Positions 35,772-47,432 of a DNA stretch of 64,000 bases are shown one piece after another. The position numbers and the translations under genes were made by a program. The stretch is from Thioalkalivibrio sp. ALJ7 (GTDB lineage Bacteria > Pseudomonadota > Gammaproteobacteria > Ectothiorhodospirales > Ectothiorhodospiraceae). The first letter of the stretch is position 1, and each line of letters begins with the position of its first letter. Below the pieces are notes generated by a model. It saw nothing but the letters and a program-made list of their open reading frames with translations, had not been told where the DNA came from and made no database searches. The stretch covers positions 248,001-312,000 of the forward strand of contig NZ_AQXQ01000012.1 in NCBI RefSeq assembly GCF_000376865.1. The letters are read 5' to 3'.

Positions 35772-36446
35772 ATGAACTCGCCCATCACAATCCGACACGC
35801 TAGCCAGGGCCTGTTGCTCGCCGCGGCTCTGGGGCTCGCAGGCCCAGTGCCGGCCGAACCCGAGGTCGGTATCACCACCGACATGGCCGAGTTCGAAGTG
35901 CGCCACGGCGATGAGCGCATGACGGTCACCCGCGATCAGGACACCTTCGCGACCATCGATCTCGACTATGCGCAGATTGCACGCCCCTGTCCGCCCTTCT
36001 GCATCCAGCCGATGAACCTCGGGCGCGGGGTCGAGACCCTGGGCGAACTGGAGTTCATCGACTATCTCCAGCAAACCACGCAGCGCGACGATCTTCTGAT
36101 CATCGATTCACGCACCCCGCGCGAATACCACCGCGGTACGATCCCCGGCGCCATCAACATCCCCTGGGACCGGCTGCACTTCGCGTCGGGCGCCGATCCG
36201 GAGGATGTACGAAACGTGCTGACCGACGATTTTGGCGTGGTCTTCGACGGCGACTTCTACGACTTCAGCCAGGCCAAGACACTGGTGCTGTTCTGCAACG
36301 GACCCTGGTGCGGCCAGTCCCCCACCAACATCCGCACCCTGACCAACCTTGGCTATCCGGCGGAACGCATCAAGTGGTACCGCGGCGGCATGCAGCTATG
36401 GCATGCCTTCGGCCTGACCACGGTAGAGGGCGTGACGGATGACTAG
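35772..36446 (+). CDS. Exported rhodanese-domain protein
   Basis: A 224-aa protein with signal QGLLLAAALGLAGPVPA. A short N-terminal part holds a Cys pair (ARPCPPFCIQPMNLG). The rhodanese domain follows, with LIIDSRTPREYHRGTIPGAI and active-site Cys in LFCNGPWCGQSP (two Cys in the loop region). GGGAGG lies before the ATG; the frame opens far upstream inside the EAL gene but that is a shadow. The TAG stop lies in the CTAG that forms the left edge of the 318-bp element inserted immediately after it. Confidence 0.9.
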   Translation: MNSPITIRHASQGLLLAAALGLAGPVPAEPEVGITTDMAEFEVRHGDERMTVTRDQDTFATIDLDYAQIARPCPPFCIQPMNLGRGVETLGELEFIDYLQQTTQRDDLLIIDSRTPREYHRGTIPGAINIPWDRLHFASGADPEDVRNVLTDDFGVVFDGDFYDFSQAKTLVLFCNGPWCGQSPTNIRTLTNLGYPAERIKWYRGGMQLWHAFGLTTVEGVTDD

Positions 36447-36760
36447 GGAGACGCTGATTGAATCGCACGTCCGCGCTCGAGTCGCTTTTACGTGCAAACA
36501 AGGCGCGGTGACTGCCGTGCAGTCACTCTGCACAAGGGAACCGCAACGCCGTGCGCGCGCCCGTTATTGATCAACAACGGGCGGCCGAGCCCGCTCTTTC
36601 AATCACTTGTCGGGTTGGCGCCCCCCGATTCTGAATGAATATGGCCCGATACTGCGTTGCGACGCTTGCGGGTAGAACCACTACCCGCTGCACGACGCGC
36701 CTTGTCTCGGAAAACAGGGGGCGCCAACGCGGACGTGCGATTCAATCAGCGTCTCCCTAG
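36443..36760. mobile_element. 318-bp miniature inverted-repeat element (MITE)
   Basis: The ends 36443-36475 and 36728-36760 are perfect 33-bp inverted repeats starting CTAGGGAGACGCTGATTGAA. CTAG may be a 4-bp target duplication, as IS5-type transposases make at YTAR. Nested inside are further perfect inverted pairs: ACAAGGCGCG (36498-36507 with 36696-36705) and GTTGGCGCCCCC (36614-36625 with 36717-36728). Local hairpins occur at 36508-36526 (GTGACTGC-cgt-GCAGTCAC) and 36668-36688 (GCGGGTAG-aacca-CTACCCGC). No coding frame for a transposase is present, so it must be moved in trans. Confidence 0.88.
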
Positions 36761-36796
36761 CGCGCTCGCAACGCGCGCCGGAACTCTGGCTTAGGA

Positions 36797-38059
36797 CTAC
36801 TCGTCCATCAGCTCCTGGATATCGGCCAACACGTCCGGTTCATCCCATTCGATCGCGCTGTTGACCGAATACCGGATGCGCCCTTCACGGTCGAGGATGA
36901 ACGAGCTGGGGAAGGCGAATACTCGCCAGCCCGCCGCCACGCGGCCATCGAAATCCATCAATACCGGGAAATCCACCTGTACCTCGTCCATGAACGTCGC
37001 GATGTGTTCCGCGCTCTCCTGGTAGTTGACCGAGACAATCGAGAACCCCTCGCCCAGGGTCTCGGCCATGCGGTTCATCGACGGGATCTCGTGGACACAG
37101 GGCGGGCACCAACTCGCCCAGAAGTTCAACAGCACAACGTCCCCGGCGTAATCGGACAGCGACTGCTCATCGCCCAGGTGGTCGGTCAGCGTGAAGTCCG
37201 CCATGGGCGCCGCGCGATCGCGCTCCACCAGGCCACGTCCGGCCTCGACCCGAGGCGTATCCTCCGGCAAAGGCGCCGCAGTCCGGGCACGCGGAACACT
37301 CGCCAGGAGGCGCCCGGCCTGCAGCAACTGCGAGGGTAGCTGGTCGGTCGCCACCTGTTCCTCGGGCGCGGGATCGGAACGGCGCAGATAATAGAAATCC
37401 CGCACCTGAGGCACCATCTGCACGAACACCGGGCTCCCGCCCTGGCGCAGGTCGGCCAGGATGTCGTTCAGGTGCCATCGGTACACGCCCTGCGTGGGTT
37501 GCAGCAAGAAGACCGGCAGGCTAGTGGCTCGCACCACGTCCTCGCGCACCGCTGGCGCGCCCGCCACCGGGGTATCGGTTATCAGATTGGGAAACGCCAG
37601 CGCAGCGCCCAGTACGTAATCACCCTCTGGCGCGTCCTCCTGCCATTGGCGCATGCCCCGAAGCGCGATCAGGGCAGGCCGCCCGGACGCCACCAGCATC
37701 ACTTCCTTACCAGTATGGGCGTGTGCCTCGCGCAACAACGCGGCCACGGAGACACCGTCCAGGCTGCGCATGCTCTCGTTCGTACGCGGGAGAAAGTGCG
37801 CATCCAGCAGGTCCACCTGCCACACCTCGACGCCGGCCGCCGCCAGGGTCTGGCCCAGGACCCGATGATTGGGGTGCTCGCCGGCCTGCGGCAATAGCCA
37901 TAGATACAGGCGTTCGCCCGATGCGGGGAACACCGTGACCTCCAGTTCGACCCCTTCCGGGTCGGTGAAACTTTGGGTGCGCGGCTCGACCGCGGCAGCC
38001 GGCAGCCCGGCGCTCAGGAGCAACCACAGCCCAAGGGCCAGGGACAAGGCGGTTTTCAT
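36797..38059 (-). CDS. Alpha/beta-hydrolase-like and TlpA-thioredoxin fusion (copy 2)
   Basis: A 420-aa exported protein (signal ALSLALGLWLLLSAGLPAAA). It has the same architecture as the gene at 31759: an N-terminal hydrolase-like domain (LYLWLLPQAGEHPNHRVL, VMLVASGRPALIAL; no catalytic GxSxG) and a C-terminal TlpA domain with LLNFWASWCPPCVHEIPSMN. The two proteins share order and motifs but are well diverged, so the duplication is old. The CPPC motif suggests thiol-disulfide exchange in the periplasm. The partner is unknown. Confidence 0.88.
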   Translation of the reverse strand: MKTALSLALGLWLLLSAGLPAAAVEPRTQSFTDPEGVELEVTVFPASGERLYLWLLPQAGEHPNHRVLGQTLAAAGVEVWQVDLLDAHFLPRTNESMRSLDGVSVAALLREAHAHTGKEVMLVASGRPALIALRGMRQWQEDAPEGDYVLGAALAFPNLITDTPVAGAPAVREDVVRATSLPVFLLQPTQGVYRWHLNDILADLRQGGSPVFVQMVPQVRDFYYLRRSDPAPEEQVATDQLPSQLLQAGRLLASVPRARTAAPLPEDTPRVEAGRGLVERDRAAPMADFTLTDHLGDEQSLSDYAGDVVLLNFWASWCPPCVHEIPSMNRMAETLGEGFSIVSVNYQESAEHIATFMDEVQVDFPVLMDFDGRVAAGWRVFAFPSSFILDREGRIRYSVNSAIEWDEPDVLADIQELMDE

Positions 38060-38131
38060 GCGGTAGAGACCAGCAGCTCGGGGAGGGGAACCCGACTATA
38101 GCGCGTGACAGCGCCCGTCCGGAATGCCGGG

Positions 38132-38710
38132 TTAGCGCCGGCTCGGATGGATATGCTGCCAGGTTCGTAGCTGGCGGGTCTTCTCCACCATGCGCCACAG
38201 CGAACGGCTGTTGTTGTAGCGCGATACGTGCTGCAACGGGACCCACAGGATGTCGTGCGACTCGTGGCTGCCGGGCACCGGCAGGTGGTTATCGATCTCC
38301 AGCAGGAAGCGCACGTCGATGTGCTCGTGCATCGGAAAATCCGGGCGGGCCGGGATGGTGTGGATATCGAGATCGAAGATGTCCTCCGCCACCAGCCGAA
38401 TCTGCTCGGGGGCCAGTCCAGTCTCCTCGTGAGTCTCGCGCAGGGCCACCTGCAGGATGTCCGCCTGGCCATCGGCGTGACCACCCGGCTGGAACCAGCG
38501 GTGATGCTTGCCGTGCAGCAGGAGCAGCGCCTGCTCGCGATCCGGGCTGACCACCCACGCCGATCCGGTCACATGGGCCGGTAGCAGATCGCAATGAAAG
38601 CAGTCCGGTTGCTCGCTGACGAACTCCAGCGCCCGACGCACGAAGCCGGTCTCCTCAATGAACCGCGTCTGGTGACGCGCGAGCAGATCCAGTAGCTGGG
38701 CGCGATGCAT
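38132..38710 (-). CDS. NUDIX hydrolase
   Basis: A 192-aa cytoplasmic pyrophosphohydrolase. The Nudix box is GHADGQADILQVALRETHEE followed by TGL: the REXXEEXG core is intact, but the first Glu of the 23-residue consensus is Ala, as in several GGHAD-type subfamilies. The remaining sequence includes WFQPGGHADG and HEHIDVRFLLEID. The substrate is not predictable. Its start lies 1 bp beyond the stop of the BMC gene, so the two are co-transcribed, with the NUDIX gene second. Confidence 0.9.
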   Translation of the reverse strand: MHRAQLLDLLARHQTRFIEETGFVRRALEFVSEQPDCFHCDLLPAHVTGSAWVVSPDREQALLLLHGKHHRWFQPGGHADGQADILQVALRETHEETGLAPEQIRLVAEDIFDLDIHTIPARPDFPMHEHIDVRFLLEIDNHLPVPGSHESHDILWVPLQHVSRYNNSRSLWRMVEKTRQLRTWQHIHPSRR

Positions 38711-38711
38711 C

Positions 38712-39326
38712 TCAGGTACCCGCGGGGTTGTGCAGCGCGTGGATCGCCGCGCGCGCGGCCTCGTCCACGTTGCCCTCGGTGCCAGCCAGGGTCAGACGGC
38801 CAAAGGCCCCGACCGCGCGCACATCGATGAGCGAGACATGGGCGGCCTTGAGCGCCTGGTTCGCGGCGTAGATGATGTACCCGGCCGGCTCCGCCTCAAG
38901 GATGAACATGCTCTGCTCCGGCAGAATCATGTTGCCGCGGCGGTTCTGGCGGTTGATCAGCACCGTGTGATCAGGGGTCATCCCCCGGATGGTCTCCTGC
39001 CAGGGGATGCGGCAGGGCTGACGGTCCTCCTGGCTCGCACCCAGGCGTTGCAAAAGCACCCGCCCCGCTTCCTGTACTTCGCTCTGGTCGCGGTGATGGA
39101 TCACCATGGAGCCGAACTCGCGTTCCACCACCTGCTGCGCAAGGTGCACATTGGTCGCCTTCAGCGCCACGTCGGTCAGACGGTGGACCGCCATCCCCGG
39201 CGACACCTCCACCCACAGGCACGAGTCCCCCGGCACGGGCAGAAAGCCCTGGGAGACCGTAGCCATGTATTCCGCCAGCTGTGGCTGGAGGGAATCCATG
39301 TAGACGTAGGTGCGCAGCTTGATCAT
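38712..39326 (-). CDS. Tandem-domain bacterial microcompartment (BMC) shell protein
   Basis: A 204-aa protein with two BMC-like halves. The second (about 135-204) is clear: [20 protein letters not shown], then [20 protein letters not shown] and [11 protein letters not shown]. The first (about 8-105) is more divergent: [20 protein letters not shown] and [19 protein letters not shown]. Tandem-domain shell proteins form pseudo-hexameric trimers in carboxysomes and metabolosomes. No other shell gene or encapsulated enzyme lies in this window. Start 39326 ([11 protein letters not shown]) is chosen over an in-frame start at 39476 whose extra residues do not look like the domain. Confidence 0.8.
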
Positions 39327-39592
39327 GAATCCGCCAATGGGGAGGCACCGATGGTTCGGCGCTTCCTCGGGCCCGTCGAACCAGGCCGCCCCCCGCCAAC
39401 GGGAGGGCAGCCCGTACCGGGCGCAAACGAAAACGGCCAGGAGCAGCACCCGCGGGATGCGGCCCGGCCGTGACAACGGGCGCTATTGTGGACGCCCCAG
39501 CCCCGAAGCTCAACGTTGACAGGCCACACCCACCATGCTGTGACCTTCAGAAACGGGCGCCTCGGGCCCGTTAGGCACCCCCCACGAAATCA

Positions 39593-39621
39593 CTTGTATA
39601 CCCCCGCCCGACTGCCATACT
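39593..39621 (+). promoter_or_regulatory. Promoter of the GNAT-C39 gene, likely leaderless
   Basis: TTGTAT at 39593-39598 and CATACT at 39616-39621 are 17 bp apart. The start codon begins seven bases after the -10 box, where transcription should start, and no Shine-Dalgarno is visible, so the mRNA may be leaderless. A hairpin AACGGGC/GCCCGTT at 39552-39572 precedes it. Confidence 0.4.
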
Positions 39622-39627
39622 TCGACT

Positions 39628-40734
39628 ATGATCCGCACCGCGCTGCTTGACGACCTGCCCGCCCTGGTGGCGCTGGAGGAGCAAGCCTTTGCCAGCGACC
39701 GGCTCTCGCGGCGCCAGTTTCGCTACATGCTGACACGGGCCAACGCCCGGCTCCTGGTGGCCGAACAGAACGCGGCCCTGGTGGGTTATGTCCTGCTGCT
39801 GTTCAGCCGCGGCACCTCGATGGCACGGCTGTACTCGATCGCCGTACGCCCCGAGGCACGCGGACAAGGCCTAGCCAGGGCACTTGTTGCCGCGGCGGAG
39901 GAGGCCGCGCGCGAACACGAGTGTGCCTGGTTGCGACTGGAGGTGCGCAAGGACAACCCCGCTTCCAATGGCCTCTTCGAGGCACTCGGCTACCGCCGTA
40001 TCGGGGAGTACGGCGACTACTACGCGGACCACATGGATGCCTGGCGCTACGAGAAATCGCTCGCGCCGCATCTGGATCAGGAAATGGTCCGCGTGCCGTT
40101 CTACGAGCAGACCCAGGACTTCACCTGTGGGCCGGCTGCAATCATGATGGCGATGAAGGCCCTGGCCCCCAACCTGGAGCTGGACCGGAAGCTGGAACTG
40201 CGCCTGTGGCGCGAGGCCACAACCATCTACATGACCTCCGGCCATGGCGGCTGCGGCCCGTACGGACTGGCGCTGGCCGCCGCCCACCGTGGCTTCGGCG
40301 TGGAGCTGGTCATCAACGACGAGCGCATGCCTTTACTGGATTCCGTGCGCAGCCCCGAGAAGAAGGAAGTGATGCGCCTGGTGCAGGAGGACATGCTGGA
40401 GGAGATCCAGACTCTGGGCCTGCCCCTGACCTACGGGACCTTGTCGGTAGACGACCTGAAGGCCCGCTTCGACGATGGCGGCGTGCCCGTGGTGCTGATC
40501 AGCTCCTGGCGTATCTATGGCGAGAAATTTCCACACTGGGTGGTAATCACCGGCTTCGACGAGCACTACGTCTACATGCACGACCCGTATGTGGACCACA
40601 ACAACGACGAAATCCCCCTGGACTCCATCAACATGCCGATTCCACGCCGGGACTTTAACCGCATGGCGCGTTACGGCAAGGCCGGCCTCAGAGCCGTCCT
40701 GATCCTCTACCCGCGACCCGACACGCTGCCCTGA
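39628..40734 (+). CDS. GNAT acetyltransferase fused to a C39-like papain-fold peptidase
   Basis: A 368-aa cytoplasmic fusion. Residues 1-145 are a RimI-like GNAT domain with the acetyl-CoA loop RPEARGQGLARALV and NPASNGLFEALGY. Residues 150-368 are a C39-type cysteine-peptidase-like domain with nucleophile C167 (QDFTCGPAAIMMAMKAL), H303 (PHWVVITGFD) and D319 (MHDPYVD). The next gene, two bases later, encodes a RimK-like ATP-grasp ligase. Such GNAT-peptidase and ATP-grasp pairs have been proposed to make and trim an acylated peptide; the product is unknown. No transmembrane helices are present. Confidence 0.9.
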   Translation: MIRTALLDDLPALVALEEQAFASDRLSRRQFRYMLTRANARLLVAEQNAALVGYVLLLFSRGTSMARLYSIAVRPEARGQGLARALVAAAEEAAREHECAWLRLEVRKDNPASNGLFEALGYRRIGEYGDYYADHMDAWRYEKSLAPHLDQEMVRVPFYEQTQDFTCGPAAIMMAMKALAPNLELDRKLELRLWREATTIYMTSGHGGCGPYGLALAAAHRGFGVELVINDERMPLLDSVRSPEKKEVMRLVQEDMLEEIQTLGLPLTYGTLSVDDLKARFDDGGVPVVLISSWRIYGEKFPHWVVITGFDEHYVYMHDPYVDHNNDEIPLDSINMPIPRRDFNRMARYGKAGLRAVLILYPRPDTLP

Positions 40735-40736
40735 AC

Positions 40737-42206
40737 ATGGCCAACCACCTGCTGCTGATCGAACAACCCGAGGACTGGAAGCCGCATTTTCCGGACTACC
40801 CGGTCATGCTCGCACGCGACTACCTGGCCCACCCGCCGGCCACCGAGGGGCCGCCCCTGCGGGTCATCAACCTGTGCCGCGGGCACCGATACCTGAGTGT
40901 CGGATACTACTGCTCGCTGCTGGCCGAGGCCCGTCACCACCGGGTGGTGCCCACGGTACGCACCCTGCAGGACCTGTCGCGCAAATCCATCTACAGCCTG
41001 GACACCGGCGATATCGACCGCAAGGTGGCCCGAGTGCTCGGCCGGCGCGCCAGCCTGCAGGCGACCGCCTTCGAGATGATCGTGTTCTTCGGTCACTGCA
41101 TCCCCGAAGCGATGCAGGAGATCGCCCAGCAGTTGTTCGCCATCTTCCCCGCCCCAATGTTCCGGGTCGAGTTCCGGCTGGCCGGGCAATGGCGGATCGA
41201 GGCCCTGCGCCCACTGTCCCTGCAAGACCTGACCAGCGAACAGGAGGAGGCCTTCTTCGCCGCCCTGGACGGGTATCTGGCGCGCCGCTGGCGCAAGCGT
41301 CGCGGGGCGCGCGGCGCGCGCTATGACCTGGCGATCCTGCAAAACCCGGAGGAAGCACTGCCGCCGTCCAACCGTGGCGCGCTCAAGCAGTTCATTCGCC
41401 ACGGCCGCGCCCTCGGCCTGGAGGTGGAACTGATCCAACGCCGCGACCTCACGCGGCTGGCGGAGTACGACGCCCTGTTCATCCGCGAAACCACGCGCAT
41501 CGATCACTACACCTACCGTTTCGCCCGCAAGGCCGAGGCCGAAGGCATGGTGGTGATCGACGATCCCGACTCCATCCTGCGCTGCACCAACAAGGTCTAC
41601 CTGGCGGAGCTGCTGACCGCGCACCGGATTGCCACGCCACGAACCTTGATCGTCAGTCGCGACAACCTGCTCGCCGCCGAGGAGACGATCGGCTACCCGA
41701 TCGTCCTGAAGATCCCGGACGGCTCGTTCTCGCGCGGGGTGTTCAAGGTCGAAAATCGTGACGAGCTGGAATCCACCGCACGGGGCCTGTTCCGCGAATC
41801 CGACCTGATCCTGGCGCAGGAATTCACCTACACCGAGTTCGACTGGCGCATCGGCATCCTGAACCGCCAGCCGCTGTACGCCTGCCAGTACTTCATGTCG
41901 CGCAAGCATTGGCAGATCGTGAACCACGCGGCCAAGGGCAGTGCCCGTGAAGGCGGCTTTCGTACCCTGCCCATCGAGGAGGCCCCGCCCACCGTGATCA
42001 AGACCGCGCTGCGCGCCGCTAACCGGATCGGCGACGGTCTGTACGGCGTGGACCTGAAACAGACGGCACATGGGGTGGTGGTCATCGAAGTAAACGACAA
42101 CCCGAATCTGGATGCCGGGATTGAGGATGCCGTACTGGGCGAGCGGCTTTACCAGCGCATCCTGGAGGACCTCATCCGCCGCCTGGACCACCTGCGCCAA
42201 CGCTGA
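40737..42206 (+). CDS. RimK-like ATP-grasp ligase with RLAN N-terminal domain
   Basis: A 489-aa cytoplasmic protein. The N-terminal 190 residues match the RimK-like ATP-grasp N-terminal (RLAN) domain (PPLRVINLCRGHRYLSVGYY, HRVVPTVRTLQDLSRKSIY). The ATP-grasp core covers about 285-480, with YPIVLKIPDGSFSRGVFKV, QEFTYTEFDWRIGILNRQPL and the metal site VIEVNDNPNLDAGIED. RimK relatives attach amino acids (often Glu) to protein C-termini or small molecules. It is translationally linked to the GNAT-C39 gene, two bases upstream, and the two probably form one pathway. Confidence 0.92.
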   Translation: MANHLLLIEQPEDWKPHFPDYPVMLARDYLAHPPATEGPPLRVINLCRGHRYLSVGYYCSLLAEARHHRVVPTVRTLQDLSRKSIYSLDTGDIDRKVARVLGRRASLQATAFEMIVFFGHCIPEAMQEIAQQLFAIFPAPMFRVEFRLAGQWRIEALRPLSLQDLTSEQEEAFFAALDGYLARRWRKRRGARGARYDLAILQNPEEALPPSNRGALKQFIRHGRALGLEVELIQRRDLTRLAEYDALFIRETTRIDHYTYRFARKAEAEGMVVIDDPDSILRCTNKVYLAELLTAHRIATPRTLIVSRDNLLAAEETIGYPIVLKIPDGSFSRGVFKVENRDELESTARGLFRESDLILAQEFTYTEFDWRIGILNRQPLYACQYFMSRKHWQIVNHAAKGSAREGGFRTLPIEEAPPTVIKTALRAANRIGDGLYGVDLKQTAHGVVVIEVNDNPNLDAGIEDAVLGERLYQRILEDLIRRLDHLRQR

Positions 42207-42260
42207 TTCAGGCCTGGGCAAGGCCCGTATAATGGACGCACGTAAACGCAAGGGACGGCC

Positions 42261-44291
42261 ATGCCCCGCCAAGAGGATGCCACTCAGCTGCTCGACCGGC
42301 TGGCGAACGATCCACAATACGATCTCGCCGAGACCCTGCGCGCCATCATTGGCTGGTTGCGTCCGCCGGACCCTGACAATATCGCGCCAGTCATCGCGCG
42401 GATCGAGGATCTGGTCCTGGCCCTTGGCGACCGGCCAGAGCTGCGCGAACACCTCCGCGACCGCCTGGAGCAGGGGCTGGAAGATGCCCGCCATCTGACC
42501 CTGTATACCGGGATCGGGCTGTTCTCACGCAAGGGCTTTTTCCGCGAGGCGGCGGAGCTGTTGTACGAGCGGATCAATCCGCGGCCGATGGACCGCGCGG
42601 ACCTGCGTGACGTGCTCTACCACGTATTCCACGATCCGAAAGACGCGATCTGGGTGGCACGACTTCCGGACGATGCCTGGTCGCGGCTGCTGCAGGCGCT
42701 GGGATGCCTGTCCGGTGAGCACCCCGGGGTGCTGCAGCGGGCCCGCGAAGAGGCCCTATACGCGCTGGAGATGCTCTCGATCTGGATCGCGGCGGAGGAG
42801 CTGGAACCGGAGCTGCTGCGTCTCGACCCTTCAATCGCCGAACGCAACTCTGCGTTTGTGGCCCAGGAACGCGAAATCTCCGCCTACGTACGCGACTACC
42901 GGCTCTGGCTGGAAGACCCTGATTACGAACGGGTAGACGATCGCCATGCGCGTGTCCTGCTGGAGCAGTGCAAAGAGCAGATCGACCGCCTGCGACGGCG
43001 CGCGATCACCCATGGCAACAGCCTGTCGCTGACCCACCTGATGGAACGTCTGGATCAGACCCTGGCCCGTATCCACAAACTGCTGGACCTGCTCGAGCCG
43101 AACAGCGGTGACGAACCGCGCCAGGCGGCAGTCGGCGTGTTCCGCGATCTGGTGACGATCAGTGCCCGCAGCCACGGCGTTCGCGCCCTATGGCAGGACA
43201 ACATCCGCCTGGTCTCGCGCAGCGTGACCCAGCATGTCAGCGACACCGGCGAGCACTACATCACTCGCGACCGCAGCGAATACTTCCAGATGCTGCGCTC
43301 CGGGGCCGGGGCTGGCCTGATCATTGCGGTGATGGCGTTGATCAAGATTCAGGTCGAGGCCCTGGGGCTGTCCGAAGGCTGGAACACCCTATGGGTCAGC
43401 CTGAATTATGGCCTTGGCTTCGTACTGATCCATATCCTGCACTTCACCGTGGCCACCAAGCAGCCGGCGATGACGGCGGCGCGCCTAGCCGCCGCCATCG
43501 AGGAAACCGAGCGCGGAACCGCGGATCCTTCCAAACTGGCCGACCTGCTCATGCGGGTGGGGCGCTCGCAGTTCGCCGCGGTACTGGGCAACGTCGGCGT
43601 GGCGTTGCCGACCGCCATCCTGATCGGGCTGTTCGCATCCAGCCTGTTCAGTGCCCCGGTCTTGTCCAGCCACGAGATCGACTATCTGATGGACAGCCTG
43701 CGTCCGATCATGGGACTGGCATTGTTTTTCGCCGCCATTGCGGGTGTCTGGCTGTTCGTCTCCGGGCTGATTGCCGGCTTTTTCGACAACCGCTGCGCCT
43801 ATCTCGACCTGCCCGGACGTCTACGCGAGCACCCGCTGCTGCGACGGCTGCTGCCGGAAGCCAGCCGCCATCGCCTGGCCGACTGGATTGGCTACAATTA
43901 CGGCGCGCTGATCGGCAACTTCCTGTTCGGCGTCCTGCTGGGGGTGACCGGCTTCGTCGGCTACCTGCTAAACCTGCCGCTGGATATCCAGCACGTCGCC
44001 TTCGCCTCGGCCAACCTCGGCTATGTCACCGCCAGCGAGGCCCCGGGACTGCTCCTGTTCGGGCTGTTCCTGGTGTTCGTGCTACTGATTGGGGCGGTCA
44101 ACCTGTGGGTCAGCTTCGGTCTTGCGCTGTATGTTGCACTGCGTGCGCGTGGGGTGCGCATGGGCGCCTTCGGGCGGGTCTTCCGCGCCTACGGTCGTCA
44201 TCTGCGGAAGCGCCCTCGCGAGTTCCTGTTCCCACCCCGAACGGCGCCCACCTCTGATGGGGGGCCGGGCGACGAGACCGATGCGCGCTAG
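42261..44291 (+). CDS. Gcr-type 'site-specific recombinase' family membrane protein
   Basis: A 676-aa protein of the family named site-specific recombinase (SpecificRecomb, COG4389). The N-terminal 340 residues are soluble and helical. The C-terminal half has about six to seven hydrophobic helices (AGLIIAVMALIKI, VGVALPTAILIGLF, IMGLALFFAAIAGVWLF, NFLFGVLLGVTGFVGYLL, LLLFGLFLVFVLLIGAVNLW). No tyrosine or serine recombinase motif is visible, so the name is probably historical; a membrane role is more likely. AAGGGAC precedes the ATG. It follows the ATP-grasp gene by 54 bp and overlaps the lipase gene by 11 bp. Confidence 0.85.
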   Translation: MPRQEDATQLLDRLANDPQYDLAETLRAIIGWLRPPDPDNIAPVIARIEDLVLALGDRPELREHLRDRLEQGLEDARHLTLYTGIGLFSRKGFFREAAELLYERINPRPMDRADLRDVLYHVFHDPKDAIWVARLPDDAWSRLLQALGCLSGEHPGVLQRAREEALYALEMLSIWIAAEELEPELLRLDPSIAERNSAFVAQEREISAYVRDYRLWLEDPDYERVDDRHARVLLEQCKEQIDRLRRRAITHGNSLSLTHLMERLDQTLARIHKLLDLLEPNSGDEPRQAAVGVFRDLVTISARSHGVRALWQDNIRLVSRSVTQHVSDTGEHYITRDRSEYFQMLRSGAGAGLIIAVMALIKIQVEALGLSEGWNTLWVSLNYGLGFVLIHILHFTVATKQPAMTAARLAAAIEETERGTADPSKLADLLMRVGRSQFAAVLGNVGVALPTAILIGLFASSLFSAPVLSSHEIDYLMDSLRPIMGLALFFAAIAGVWLFVSGLIAGFFDNRCAYLDLPGRLREHPLLRRLLPEASRHRLADWIGYNYGALIGNFLFGVLLGVTGFVGYLLNLPLDIQHVAFASANLGYVTASEAPGLLLFGLFLVFVLLIGAVNLWVSFGLALYVALRARGVRMGAFGRVFRAYGRHLRKRPREFLFPPRTAPTSDGGPGDETDAR

Positions 44292-45303
44292 CACGTCCCT
44301 CCTTGCCGGGTGTCTGATCCTGATGCTCACCGGCTGCGCCGGGACGGTCCCCAGTGCCGGCGGAAGCGAGTTCCGGACACCATCGATGGCTCCCGATGCG
44401 GTCTACGCGGCCGACGGCGACCGTCTGCCGCTGCACCGCTGGGGACCGGAACAGCCCGAGCAGATCGTGCTCGCCCTGCACGGGTTCAACGACCACGGTG
44501 GCAGCATGCAGCCCCTGGGCGAGGCCCTGGCCGAACACGGTATCGCGGTCTACGCCTATGACCAACGCGGCTTTGGTGCCACGCGCAACGCCGGCTACTG
44601 GTCCGGCCACCGTCTAATGGCCGAGGACGCGCGCACCGTCCTTGATCTCCTGCACGAGCGCTATCCCGACCAGCCGCCCTACCTGATCGGCAAGAGCATG
44701 GGCGGTGGTGTGGCCCTCCTGGCGGCGACGCGCACCGACAGCGTCGGGTCACCACCCGTCATCGCGGGTACGGTGCTGATTGCCCCCGCGGTCTGGAGCC
44801 GCGGCGACATGCCCTGGTATCAGCGCTTCGGCCTCTGGCTGGGGGCGCGTCTAGCGCCCGGCTGGCGCCTGGACGGAGAAATGGCCGCCGACCTGGACAT
44901 CCACCCCACGGATGACCCCGCGGTGCTGGAGCAGATGCGCGACGATCCCCTGGTGCTGCGCGATGCCCGCATCGACGCCCTGGACGGCCTGACCACCCTG
45001 ATGACCCATGCCCTGGAGGCGGGACCCGACCTGCCCCCGCCCAGCCTGACGCTCTACGGGGCCCGCGATGACCTGGTGCCACCAGAACCCCTGGCGCGCC
45101 TGCTGGATGCGCTGACCGGGCAAGGGGTAGAGGGCCATCGCGCAGTCCTGTATCCCGAGGGCTACCACATGCTCACCCGCTACACCCGTGCCGCGACCAC
45201 GTTCGAGGACATCGCCGCATGGCTCAAGGACCCGGAGGGCCGTATCCCCTCCGGGCACGAACGCACCCCGACCGGTCTGGCAGAGTACCTCCGCGAGCAA
45301 TAG
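44281..45303 (+). CDS. Alpha/beta-hydrolase lipoprotein (monoglyceride lipase / lysophospholipase-like)
   Basis: A 340-aa protein with lipobox LTGC at the end of its signal (LLAGCLILMLTGC), so it is probably a lipoprotein. The hydrolase fold has VLALHGFNDHGGSM (oxyanion), nucleophile Ser in GKSMGGG, Asp in LYGARDDLVPPE and His in GYHMLTR, the layout of monoglyceride lipases and lysophospholipase L2. Translation is coupled to the preceding membrane-protein gene. Its longest frame extends upstream within that gene, but the lipoprotein signal fixes the start. Confidence 0.9.
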   Translation: MRASTSLLAGCLILMLTGCAGTVPSAGGSEFRTPSMAPDAVYAADGDRLPLHRWGPEQPEQIVLALHGFNDHGGSMQPLGEALAEHGIAVYAYDQRGFGATRNAGYWSGHRLMAEDARTVLDLLHERYPDQPPYLIGKSMGGGVALLAATRTDSVGSPPVIAGTVLIAPAVWSRGDMPWYQRFGLWLGARLAPGWRLDGEMAADLDIHPTDDPAVLEQMRDDPLVLRDARIDALDGLTTLMTHALEAGPDLPPPSLTLYGARDDLVPPEPLARLLDALTGQGVEGHRAVLYPEGYHMLTRYTRAATTFEDIAAWLKDPEGRIPSGHERTPTGLAEYLREQ

Positions 45304-45375
45304 GGACCGCACGACACTGGCCGCCGCCCGCCATCGGCGTTACGGTTGAGACGCAACCCCGGAAGAGCCAATGCA

Positions 45376-45747
45376 ATGACCGATTCGAAATCCAGCCGCC
45401 TTGATGACCTGGTCGCACGCAGCCGTCAGGACCAAGCCGAGCGCGAACGCGGCTATCGCGAACAGGCGCTGAAGATGTACTCCTGGGTTTGCGGGCGCTG
45501 CGGCCGCGAGTTCACCCGCACGAACCTGCGCGAACTGACGGTTCACCATCGCGACCACAACCATGACAACAACCCGTCGGACGGTAGCAACTGGGAACTG
45601 CTGTGCCTGTACTGTCACGATAATGAGCACCAGCGCTATACCGATGCCACCCCTGGTACCGGGGGCAGTGCCGCAGGTCCTTCGGCCACGCACAACCCGT
45701 TTGCCGGGCTAGCCGATCTGCTGAATCGAGACGACCACTCGAAATAG
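45376..45747 (+). CDS. yajD: YajD-type HNH nuclease
   Basis: A 123-aa protein of the YajD family. It has a zinc-binding pair CGRCG, the HNH segment LTVHHRDHNHDNNPSDGSNW and a second pair LCLYCHDNEH. The catalytic His lies in HHRDHN. The N-terminus is a charged helix (RLDDLVARSRQDQAERERGYR). HNH nucleases cut DNA, but the cellular role of YajD is not established. The start is the second ATG after a GGAAGAG site. Confidence 0.92.
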   Translation: MTDSKSSRLDDLVARSRQDQAERERGYREQALKMYSWVCGRCGREFTRTNLRELTVHHRDHNHDNNPSDGSNWELLCLYCHDNEHQRYTDATPGTGGSAAGPSATHNPFAGLADLLNRDDHSK

Positions 45748-45766
45748 CGTACCCACCGCGTTCGGT

Positions 45767-46348
45767 TCACAACCGGCGCCACCAGAACTGCAGCGGCTTG
45801 AAGGTCTCCTCGGTCATGCCGATGTCCGGCCAGGGGAATTCACAGACCAGGCCCCCGGCCTTCTCGTAACCGCGTTTGGCCCAGAAGCCGTCCAGCGGCC
45901 GGTAGTTTGCCGGGCGCCGTGGGTGATCGTCCGGACGAATCACCGAACAGAAGACGGCATGGGCAAAACTCAACCTGCGGGCGGCCGCCTCGCGCTCGTC
46001 GAAAAAGCGATGCCCAGCCCCCTGGCCACGAAAGGCGGGCTCCAGCACCGATTCCGCCAGATAGTAATACGCCGCAGGTTCCAGCCCGCGCTCGACGAAA
46101 GGGGCCTGGAACTCCGCCTCGGCCGCAGCCAGCGGAAGCGCGGTGGAGGCCCCAACGACGCGCTCCCCGTCCAACGCCAGCACCAAGGTGCTGTCGGGGC
46201 AGTCGACATACTCCTGCAGATAGGCCTCTTCGTACTCCGGCGTGCCCTCGTAGAGATAGGGCCACTCGCGGAACACCGCAATGCGCAGGCGCGCCACGTC
46301 TTCCAGATAGGCCGCGATCCCGGCCCCTCCTACGGTCCTGAACTGCAT
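45767..46348 (-). CDS. GNAT-family N-acetyltransferase
   Basis: A 193-aa protein with the GNAT order: LRIAVFREWPYLYEG, VGASTALPLAAAEAEF, YLAESVLEPAFRGQGAGHRFF (the acetyl-CoA loop RGQGAG) and YRPLDGFWAKRGYEK. The substrate is unknown. It converges with yajD, 19 bp away. Confidence 0.88.
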   Translation of the reverse strand: MQFRTVGGAGIAAYLEDVARLRIAVFREWPYLYEGTPEYEEAYLQEYVDCPDSTLVLALDGERVVGASTALPLAAAEAEFQAPFVERGLEPAAYYYLAESVLEPAFRGQGAGHRFFDEREAAARRLSFAHAVFCSVIRPDDHPRRPANYRPLDGFWAKRGYEKAGGLVCEFPWPDIGMTEETFKPLQFWWRRL

Positions 46349-46397
46349 CGACTCCCCTCAGCTCATGCGCTCGCTCTGATGCGATCGTCCCATACGC

Positions 46398-47432
46398 TCA
46401 ATCCCCCGGTTCGGCCTCGGGGGCCAACCGCCCCACCCCACGCAGCAGCCGCCCGAGGATATCCGCCCCGCTGATCAGACGGCGCTGGCCCTCAGTCCAG
46501 AGCAGAATCACATCATTACCCACCACGGTGTCGCCGCTGCTGGCCGGTCGCACCTGAAAATAGGGCACCAGGCTGCCCAGACGGCGACTGGCGTCACGCA
46601 CCACCAGCGGTCGATGACAATGGTCTTGCGGATCGAACCCCTCCGGCGCAAAAAGGGCCTCGCGGGTCAGGTCCGCGGCGCGTAACACCACCCGTGGCTC
46701 GCCCTCGCGATCGGTAATGACGACCCAACCCCGCCCCGCACGATTGATCCGGTGCAGGAACGGATCGTCGATACGCGGCTGGATCGCCGGGAACACCGGG
46801 CGATTCTCCATAAACTCCAGCTCCAACACACTGTCCGGGTCCAAGGCCTCGCCCTCATGCTGGACCAGGATGTCGTCCAGCTCCAGAAAATTGCGGGCGC
46901 CACGCCCCTCGACCCGCGTGATCTCGCTGTCGCGCGCCTGGATATGCAGGTCGATCAGGTGGTGCAGATCGCGCTCGGGAAGGAAGCGGACTTCCTCGCC
47001 CCCCAACCAGCGGTCCAGCACCCATGCCGTCGGTCGCGCAACGGGATACATCAGGACTTGATAGAAGCGCAGTACCGGATACAAGGCGCCCGCCACCCGC
47101 AGGGCATGCCGCGAGAAATACGACTGCGGAAGAATCTCGGCAAAGATCGTGATCACCACGGTGGAGAACAGGAAGGCCGCCACGCCACCCATCACCGACC
47201 CCGAGAGCAGTGCCAGCATCACGTTGACCGCCACATTGCCCCAAAGGATGGTCACCAGCGCAAAGTTGGCATCACCCCGCAGGGCCAACAGGCGCTCGGC
47301 GCGCGCATCCCCCTTCTGCGCCTCGACCTCCAGCTCCAGCTTGCTGCGCGAGAACAGCCCCAGATTCAACCCGGACAGGATGGCCGATTGGGACAGGCAG
47401 ACGAGGATGCCCAGCCATGTCAGGAGGCTCAT
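46398..47432 (-). CDS. CNNM/DUF21 transmembrane protein (CorB/CorC-related)
   Basis: A 344-aa inner-membrane protein with a DUF21 domain: three to four helices including the motif NLGLFSRSKLELEVEAQKGD and the IFAEILPQSYFSRHA segment. A divergent region with CBS-like parts follows (GRGWVVITDREGEPRVVLRA). CNNM relatives export or sense Mg2+ or other divalent cations. Start 47432 (MSLLTWLG) follows GGAGAG; the frame opens at 47462. Confidence 0.88.
   Translation of the reverse strand: MSLLTWLGILVCLSQSAILSGLNLGLFSRSKLELEVEAQKGDARAERLLALRGDANFALVTILWGNVAVNVMLALLSGSVMGGVAAFLFSTVVITIFAEILPQSYFSRHALRVAGALYPVLRFYQVLMYPVARPTAWVLDRWLGGEEVRFLPERDLHHLIDLHIQARDSEITRVEGRGARNFLELDDILVQHEGEALDPDSVLELEFMENRPVFPAIQPRIDDPFLHRINRAGRGWVVITDREGEPRVVLRAADLTREALFAPEGFDPQDHCHRPLVVRDASRRLGSLVPYFQVRPASSGDTVVGNDVILLWTEGQRRLISGADILGRLLRGVGRLAPEAEPGD

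Follow-up and report, generated by a model that had tools for sequence, protein, structure and literature searches.

Thioalkalivibrio sp. ALJ7 (Gammaproteobacteria, Ectothiorhodospiraceae) carries, within the 64,000-nucleotide stretch of contig NZ_AQXQ01000012.1 analysed here (the window), two adjacent genes that encode a GNAT acetyltransferase fused to a C39-like peptidase domain (DUF3335) and an ATP-grasp ligase with an RLAN domain. Our analysis indicates that these two genes very probably function as a pair. Genomes of the family have either both or neither, and one genome retains both although they lie 316 kb apart. We tentatively propose, rating the chance as somewhat below even, that the pair is a cytosolic module for N-acetylation and amino-acid ligation, that its product would most likely be a short N-acetylated non-ribosomal peptide and that the C39-like domain edits this product.

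The two genes and their conserved linkage

The pair and its domains occupy the following positions of the window:

39628-40734, forward strand: open reading frame (ORF) with an ATG start, 368 residues, GNAT acetyltransferase (residues 1-145) fused to a DUF3335/C39-like papain-fold domain (residues 156-360), assigned with Pfam
40093-40707, forward strand: DUF3335 (C39-like) domain with the papain-type set Gln161, Cys167, His303 and Asp319
40737-42206, forward strand: ORF with an ATG start, 489 residues, RLAN and RimK-like ATP-grasp ligase, assigned with Pfam
40812-41261, forward strand: RLAN domain (PF14401), residues 26-175 of the ligase

The two genes lie on the same strand with a gap of 2 bp. 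A preliminary description, made from the letters of the window alone, had claimed these two ORFs, their domains and the short gap, and the coordinates and Pfam bear it out. The first protein matches Acetyltransf_1 at residues 25-122 (68.4 bits, cut-off 20.7) and, further along the same ORF, DUF3335 ('Peptidase_C39 like family') at residues 156-360 (295.4 bits, cut-off 25), which places it in the GNAT-DUF3335 fusion family. The second matches RLAN at residues 26-175 (164.9 bits, curated cut-off 25) and the RimK ATP-grasp domain at residues 285-459 (40.7 bits, cut-off 21). GNAT-DUF3335 fusions are already in print: the portion of PMC10318531 covered here describes members of DUF3335 as often carrying fused GNAT domains, and that portion makes no mention of an RLAN ligase partner.

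Co-occurrence was measured in 274 genomes drawn evenly from the class; all probabilities given for it are uncorrected for kinship. RLAN was found in 63 genomes, a strong DUF3335 match in 44 and both in 43, so that RLAN accompanies 43/44 strong DUF3335 matches (Fisher p 1.6e-33). The 44 genomes are what is left of 48 listed matches when four weak ones (G004, G016, G049 and G116; 21-25 bits) are set aside; two of these four exceed the cut-off by the rule of the tool, and the ratio becomes 44/46 if both are included and 45/48 with all four. The two domains lie within 3 kb of each other in 40 of the 43 genomes, with DUF3335 immediately ahead of RLAN in the same direction in 33 and another arrangement in 7, and on different contigs in the remaining 3. 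Same-strand pairs in relatives are tightly spaced, with gaps of -8 to +11 bp in 37 of 49 cases (start codons were chosen by a script).

The same joint behaviour was seen among 47 genomes of the family, where the presence of each gene was called at E ≤ 1e-20. Both genes were present in an identical set of 33 genomes and missing from an identical set of 14, of which 12 are at least 96% complete. The pair is adjacent in 32 of the 33 carriers, and the exception, G317, holds both genes 316 kb apart; their joint retention despite this separation points to a shared function beyond a shared promoter. The preliminary description had named two outcomes that would speak against it, a lack of conserved linkage and a lack of conservation in the catalytic residues; linkage across genomes proved to be conserved, and so did the residues (see below). 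Within the genus the distribution is patchy (19 of 30 genomes). The GNAT-partnered ligase also occurs in cultured Proteobacteria, including Azospirillum, Dyella, Marichromatium and Pseudomonas.

Neither start is preceded by a Shine-Dalgarno-like match (the best has 2 of 5 positions), and a search of 38600-45400 returned 0 sigma-70-like promoters (mean of 0.9 in shuffled sequences), so that the transcription start cannot be placed. A weak TTGTAT / CATACT pair was seen by eye right before the first ATG (39583-39628). A leaderless first gene, as suggested in the preliminary description, is compatible with these data.

Predicted active sites and folds

Residue conservation was assessed in length-filtered alignments, thinned from 137 to 72 ligases and from 86 to 66 GNAT-C39 proteins. 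Gln161, Cys167 and His303 are each kept in 66/66 GNAT-C39 proteins, in line with the catalytic role that had been claimed for the latter two; Asp319 is kept in 65, with Glu in the remaining protein. Glu105 of the GNAT domain is also invariant (66/66). Among the 72 ligases, residues N45, Y58 and S60 of RLAN and residues K286, K325, D439, E451 and N453 of the ATP-grasp domain are invariant, while E362 is kept in 62; the ATP-grasp active site is thus predicted to be intact.

The AlphaFold2 models of the GNAT-C39 protein and the ligase are good, with mean predicted local distance difference test (pLDDT) values of 92.9 and 87.9, respectively. Fold comparisons cover the GNAT and ATP-grasp parts, which filled the lists of matches, with the C39 and RLAN domains outside them. 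The GNAT part has Ard1 (4pv6, Z 23.0) and RimI (2cnm, Z 22.9) as tied best matches; it also matches small-molecule acetyltransferases, but more weakly. Residues 196-487 of the ligase are closest to ArgX (3vpb, Z 28.5), LysX (3vpd, Z 28.4) and RimK (7qys, Z 27.3), and the graspetide ligase PsnB follows at rank 45 (E 2.7e-15). Compared by sequence with solved structures, the DUF3335 part had no match under E 0.28.

Curated equivalog models were not reached by either protein. The GNAT part reached 80.2 bits with hmmscan and 82.9 when the genome was searched, short of the 86.4 set for RimI (TIGR01575), and the ligase scored 36.2 against 331 bits for the RimK S6 ligase (NF007764) and 87.0 against 275.6 bits for LysX/ArgX (TIGR02144). 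Elsewhere in the genome there is a separate rimI gene (G000:C7, 122.5 bits, above the RimI cut-off) and a separate RimK-type gene (G000:C9, 232 bits to PF08443).

Full-length copies of the ligase in genus g223 share 78-80% identity with that of the window and those in genus g2 of the same family 74-75%, compared with only 68-71% for those in its own genus, g1. The gene may have been replaced by transfer, or the genome may be an early offshoot of its genus.

The peptidase domain is optional

Two sets of RLAN loci were compared: the 63 of the class sample and a set of named loci, the best 80 of at least 583 confirmed. A GNAT-C39 gene adjoins the ligase in 40 of the class loci, a GNAT gene without C39 in 6 (one of them, L114, is a broken or fragmentary locus), another operon is found in 13 and no partner of these kinds in 4; L111 stops at a contig edge. 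The named loci comprise 43 with GNAT-C39, 32 with GNAT alone and 5 with neither. Most of the GNAT-only proteins have a clean end at about 145-165 residues; their carriers include Dyella, Rhodanobacter, Lysobacter, Arenimonas and three Pseudomonas, and no DUF3335 match was found elsewhere in the six GNAT-only class genomes. The peptidase domain is therefore optional: since C39 is missing from 6/63 and 32/80 loci that keep the GNAT, GNAT and ligase form the core of what we call type I (an RLAN ligase with a GNAT partner), and C39 is losable. The preliminary description had the fused protein both acylate and cleave; the acylating partner is kept, whereas the cleaving domain turns out to be non-essential. 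In a tree of the 83 of 137 ligases left after thinning at 78% identity, the presence of C39 switches five or more times across the GNAT loci; this is a quick tree, in which 29 of the 80 inner branches are open.

Of the loci without a nearby GNAT, L083, L123, L201 and L216 lie close to contig ends, and in three class loci of this kind (L083, L113 and L123) a DUF3335 gene sits on another contig. At L113:7220-8095 a 292-residue gene abuts the RLAN ligase of G060, a genome that has its GNAT-C39 gene on a different contig. In three genomes the RLAN ligase is directly followed by a DUF155 (RMND1-like) gene (L101:5963-6766, L134:7078-7872 and L105:11802-12278); one member (L084) was compared with Pfam.

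A second operon with an RLAN ligase

The 13 class loci with another operon (type II) combine C39_2, RLAN-ATP-grasp, GCS2 and FGase genes. A stand-alone C39-like protein is present in 12 of the 13, GCS2 in 11 and FGase in 10, with some loci cut by contig ends, and the operon is complete in 10 (for instance L074:7880-12031). Type II resembles the pair of the window in its homologous ligase (40-49% identity for complete ones) and in a C39 protein homologous to DUF3335 (hhalign 95.4%, E 1.8e-8). It differs in that a GNAT was not found and in the addition of a GCS2 ligase and of a hydrolase of the N-formylglutamate amidohydrolase type; its ligases also form one separate clade in the tree (10 sequences, support 100). 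Both types combine an RLAN ligase with a second acyl- or amide-forming enzyme and with hydrolases. Speculatively, and with a probability that we put well below that of the acetylated-peptide proposal for the pair, RLAN ligases might stand at the centre of a modular pathway, so far unrecognised, that makes end-capped peptides in Proteobacteria. The partner would be a RimI-type acetyltransferase in type I or GCS2 with FGase in type II, the C39-like editing step would be shared and losable, and the product might be a new class of acetylated peptide metabolites or a tag.

Possible functions of the pair

The activities of ATP-dependent ligation and acetylation are predicted from fold and from conserved residues. 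LysX, ArgX and RimK ligases work via an acyl phosphate. The RLAN-ATP-grasp enzyme would likewise use ATP to activate a carboxylate, which it would then link to an amino acid. The RimI/Ard1-type GNAT would cap the alpha-amino group with acetyl, most likely yielding a short N-acetylated non-ribosomal peptide, and the Cys-His-Asp domain of the C39-like part might trim, transfer or recycle this product. A ligase like LysX, ArgX and RimK together with a GNAT like RimI and Ard1 makes a peptide or protein terminus the likely substrate, and action of both enzymes on one substrate is the best reading. We infer a common small-peptide substrate, the order of the steps and the role of C39, and we likewise only infer the peptide-making role itself, which had also been predicted in the preliminary description.

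Several points weigh against the acetylated-peptide proposal. RimI, Ard1 and RimK act on protein ends, which favours modification of a protein just as much. The position of the general-acid Tyr of RimI holds Phe in the protein of the window (Tyr in 42/66 and Phe in 22/66 homologues). Four loci (L088, L145, L153 and L195) have the ligase and room on the contig, and no GNAT was found nearby. In the literature searched, no text dealt with RLAN accompanied by a GNAT-C39 partner and none named a product. As a candidate identity, the synthetase of the osmolyte N-acetylglutaminylglutamine amide (NAGGN) was rejected: its model, TIGR03103, matches the GNAT part only, at 27.4 bits against a cut-off of 569. 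We place a short acetylated peptide first on account of the logic of NAGGN synthesis, as given in the portion of PMC8070244 covered, and of the patchy presence in the genus. The function is open to direct test, since natural variants lack the peptidase domain and, within one genus, some genomes have the pair and others do not.

Modification of protein ends is nearly as likely as a short peptide, and doubtful when taken by itself. The pair would act on one dedicated cellular protein, with the GNAT acetylating its N-terminus or a peptide tag, the ATP-grasp enzyme extending its C-terminus by amino acids, much as RimI and RimK treat ribosomal proteins, and C39 removing the tag. This fits the closest folds, RimI/Ard1 N-alpha-acetyltransferases (Z ~22-23) and RimK/LysX/ArgX (Z 27-28), the latter acting on protein C-termini or on the carrier LysW (in part from the titles of the structure entries and from PMC4490483), and the separate rimI and RimK-type genes elsewhere in the genome would make the pair a second, dedicated set. 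Yet no conserved candidate substrate protein was recognised beside the pair among the partly annotated neighbour clusters, the GNAT also has a weaker likeness to small-molecule acetyltransferases, and presence in 19 of 30 genomes of the genus is more in keeping with a dispensable metabolite than with a core protein being modified. A link to N-acetyl amino acids or arginine, with the pair making or salvaging an acetylated amino acid conjugate that ArgE would deacetylate, appears improbable. It draws on ArgX being among the closest folds and on arginine genes nearby, which were counted within 4 kb of the ligase in the 42 class loci with enough flank and in 61 named loci, and in about 11 kb each of 20 of the 32 other ligase-bearing family genomes. 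argE was near in 9 of the 42 class loci, which come from several families, and lay on the opposite strand; argA and/or argE lay within about 5.3 kb in 11 of the 20 family loci. However, argE was near in just 1 of the 61 named loci, neither argE nor argA was found in 19.9 kb around the pair of the window (L119), and an inherited ancestral gene order can account for the proximity without function. The two arginine neighbours scored against the canonical ArgE and ArgA models match them, so that ordinary arginine synthesis would already be served.

Less probable still is a ribosomally synthesized and post-translationally modified peptide (RiPP) of graspetide type, in which the ATP-grasp enzyme would cross-link a precursor, the GNAT would cap it and C39 would remove the leader. 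The fold match to PsnB speaks for such a pathway, and C39 peptidases cut double-glycine leaders in ATP-binding cassette (ABC) transporters, according to the part of PMC10318531 covered. A precursor was sought at 116 type I loci among 3645 ORFs of 18-110 residues lying no more than 1.5 kb from the pair, or from only the ligase if the GNAT was unfused, excluding matches of more than 92% identity. Among the 12 largest clusters inspected, there was no precursor-like peptide that spans distant orders; by eye, the clusters were alternative frames of neighbouring genes or families at the level of genus to order, and a membrane-like ORF of about 85 residues occurred in 11 loci, with all 10 shown belonging to Lysobacterales. 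Against a RiPP also stand the many loci without C39 and the finding of one ABC-ATPase cluster (8 loci) with scattered positions.

Downstream and other neighbouring genes

Two further genes follow the ligase in the window, both judged to be outside the system:

42261-44291, forward strand: Gcr-type membrane protein, PF10136 'SpecificRecomb', assigned with Pfam
44257-45303, forward strand: alpha/beta hydrolase (Hydrolase_4, 169.3 bits), a probable lipoprotein

The start of the hydrolase gene, by eye, is 44257 or 44281, and a lipobox-like LTGC was seen by eye in its N-terminus. A four-gene unit of the pair, the membrane protein and the lipoprotein hydrolase has some appeal: as the preliminary description had noted and the coordinates confirm, the third and fourth genes share a strand and overlap, and the ligase lies 54 bp before the SpecificRecomb gene on that same strand. 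Nevertheless, in the co-occurrence analysis these two genes adjoined the pair in this genome only, being within 4 kb of the ligase in 1/42 class loci (that of the window) and 0/61 named loci, and they were found in 0/20 family loci. SpecificRecomb exceeds its cut-off in 12 of the 274 class genomes, compared with 63 for RLAN, and in five other class genomes that have both, the two are on different contigs every time. We therefore reject the four-gene system as a conserved unit and give it almost no credence; SpecificRecomb and the hydrolase are judged to be a separate unit that happens to adjoin the pair here. They are neighbours of their own (42261-45303; L065), and G223, from the same genus, also holds them together, with 86% and 75% identity, on a contig other than that of its pair.

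Among other neighbours of type I in the 42 class loci, an M14 carboxypeptidase was found in 4 and DUF2817 in 3; together with argE, these recurrent hydrolases count in favour of the acetylated-peptide proposal. Upstream of the pair, a gene for a BMC-domain protein that resembles CcmP of carboxysomes (38712-39326, reverse strand; 227.7 bits against a cut-off of 340) adjoins a NUDIX gene (38132-38710, reverse strand), and in the same genome lies about 194 kb from three BMC-domain genes (C12:91486-92405). A defence or phage system was considered and rejected: PADLOC gave no defence match for four proteins, PHROGs returned matches to two acetyltransferase families, one family of unknown function and one S6 ligase family, and Rfam at the gathering threshold found nothing in 36000-47000. 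In the covered part of PMC9756463, a gene for a RimK family protein beside a GNAT gene is common to Pseudomonas fosmids chosen for pyomelanin formation; we take these genes to be bystanders.

Comparison with known systems

The NAGGN pathway resembles the proposed module in combining N-acetylation, peptide bond formation and a peptidase gene in the operon: in the part of PMC8070244 covered, Ngg N-acetylates glutamine and forms the peptide bond. It differs in that Ngg carries out both steps in one protein, whereas the couple of the window consists of two. The best match to NAGGN synthetase in the genome of ALJ7 reaches 29.5 bits against 569. The model exceeds its cut-off in 10 of the 274 class genomes, five of which also have DUF3335 and RLAN, and a sixth a type II RLAN.

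With RimK, LysX and ArgX the ligase shares the ATP-grasp fold and active site (Z 27-28), and it differs from them in about 190 additional N-terminal residues that include RLAN and in missing the equivalog cut-offs. The GNAT part has the fold and Glu105 in common with RimI and Ard1, but is fused to DUF3335, misses the RimI cut-off and often has Phe at the position of the general-acid Tyr. By curated cut-offs on sequence, then, the pair is not NAGGN synthetase, RimI, RimK or LysX.

The RimK-like ATP-grasp amidoligases with an RLAN domain were reportedly predicted by comparative genomics by Iyer et al. in 2009. The pair matches this family (PF14401) in domain make-up, score, catalytic residues and linkage to acyl- or amide-forming enzymes and peptidases, and the GNAT-only variants, the co-loss in the family and the unlinked retention are results of the present analysis. 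The pair is a member of the predicted RLAN family, a prediction made sharper by the co-loss, by the optional nature of the peptidase and by the existence of two operon types.

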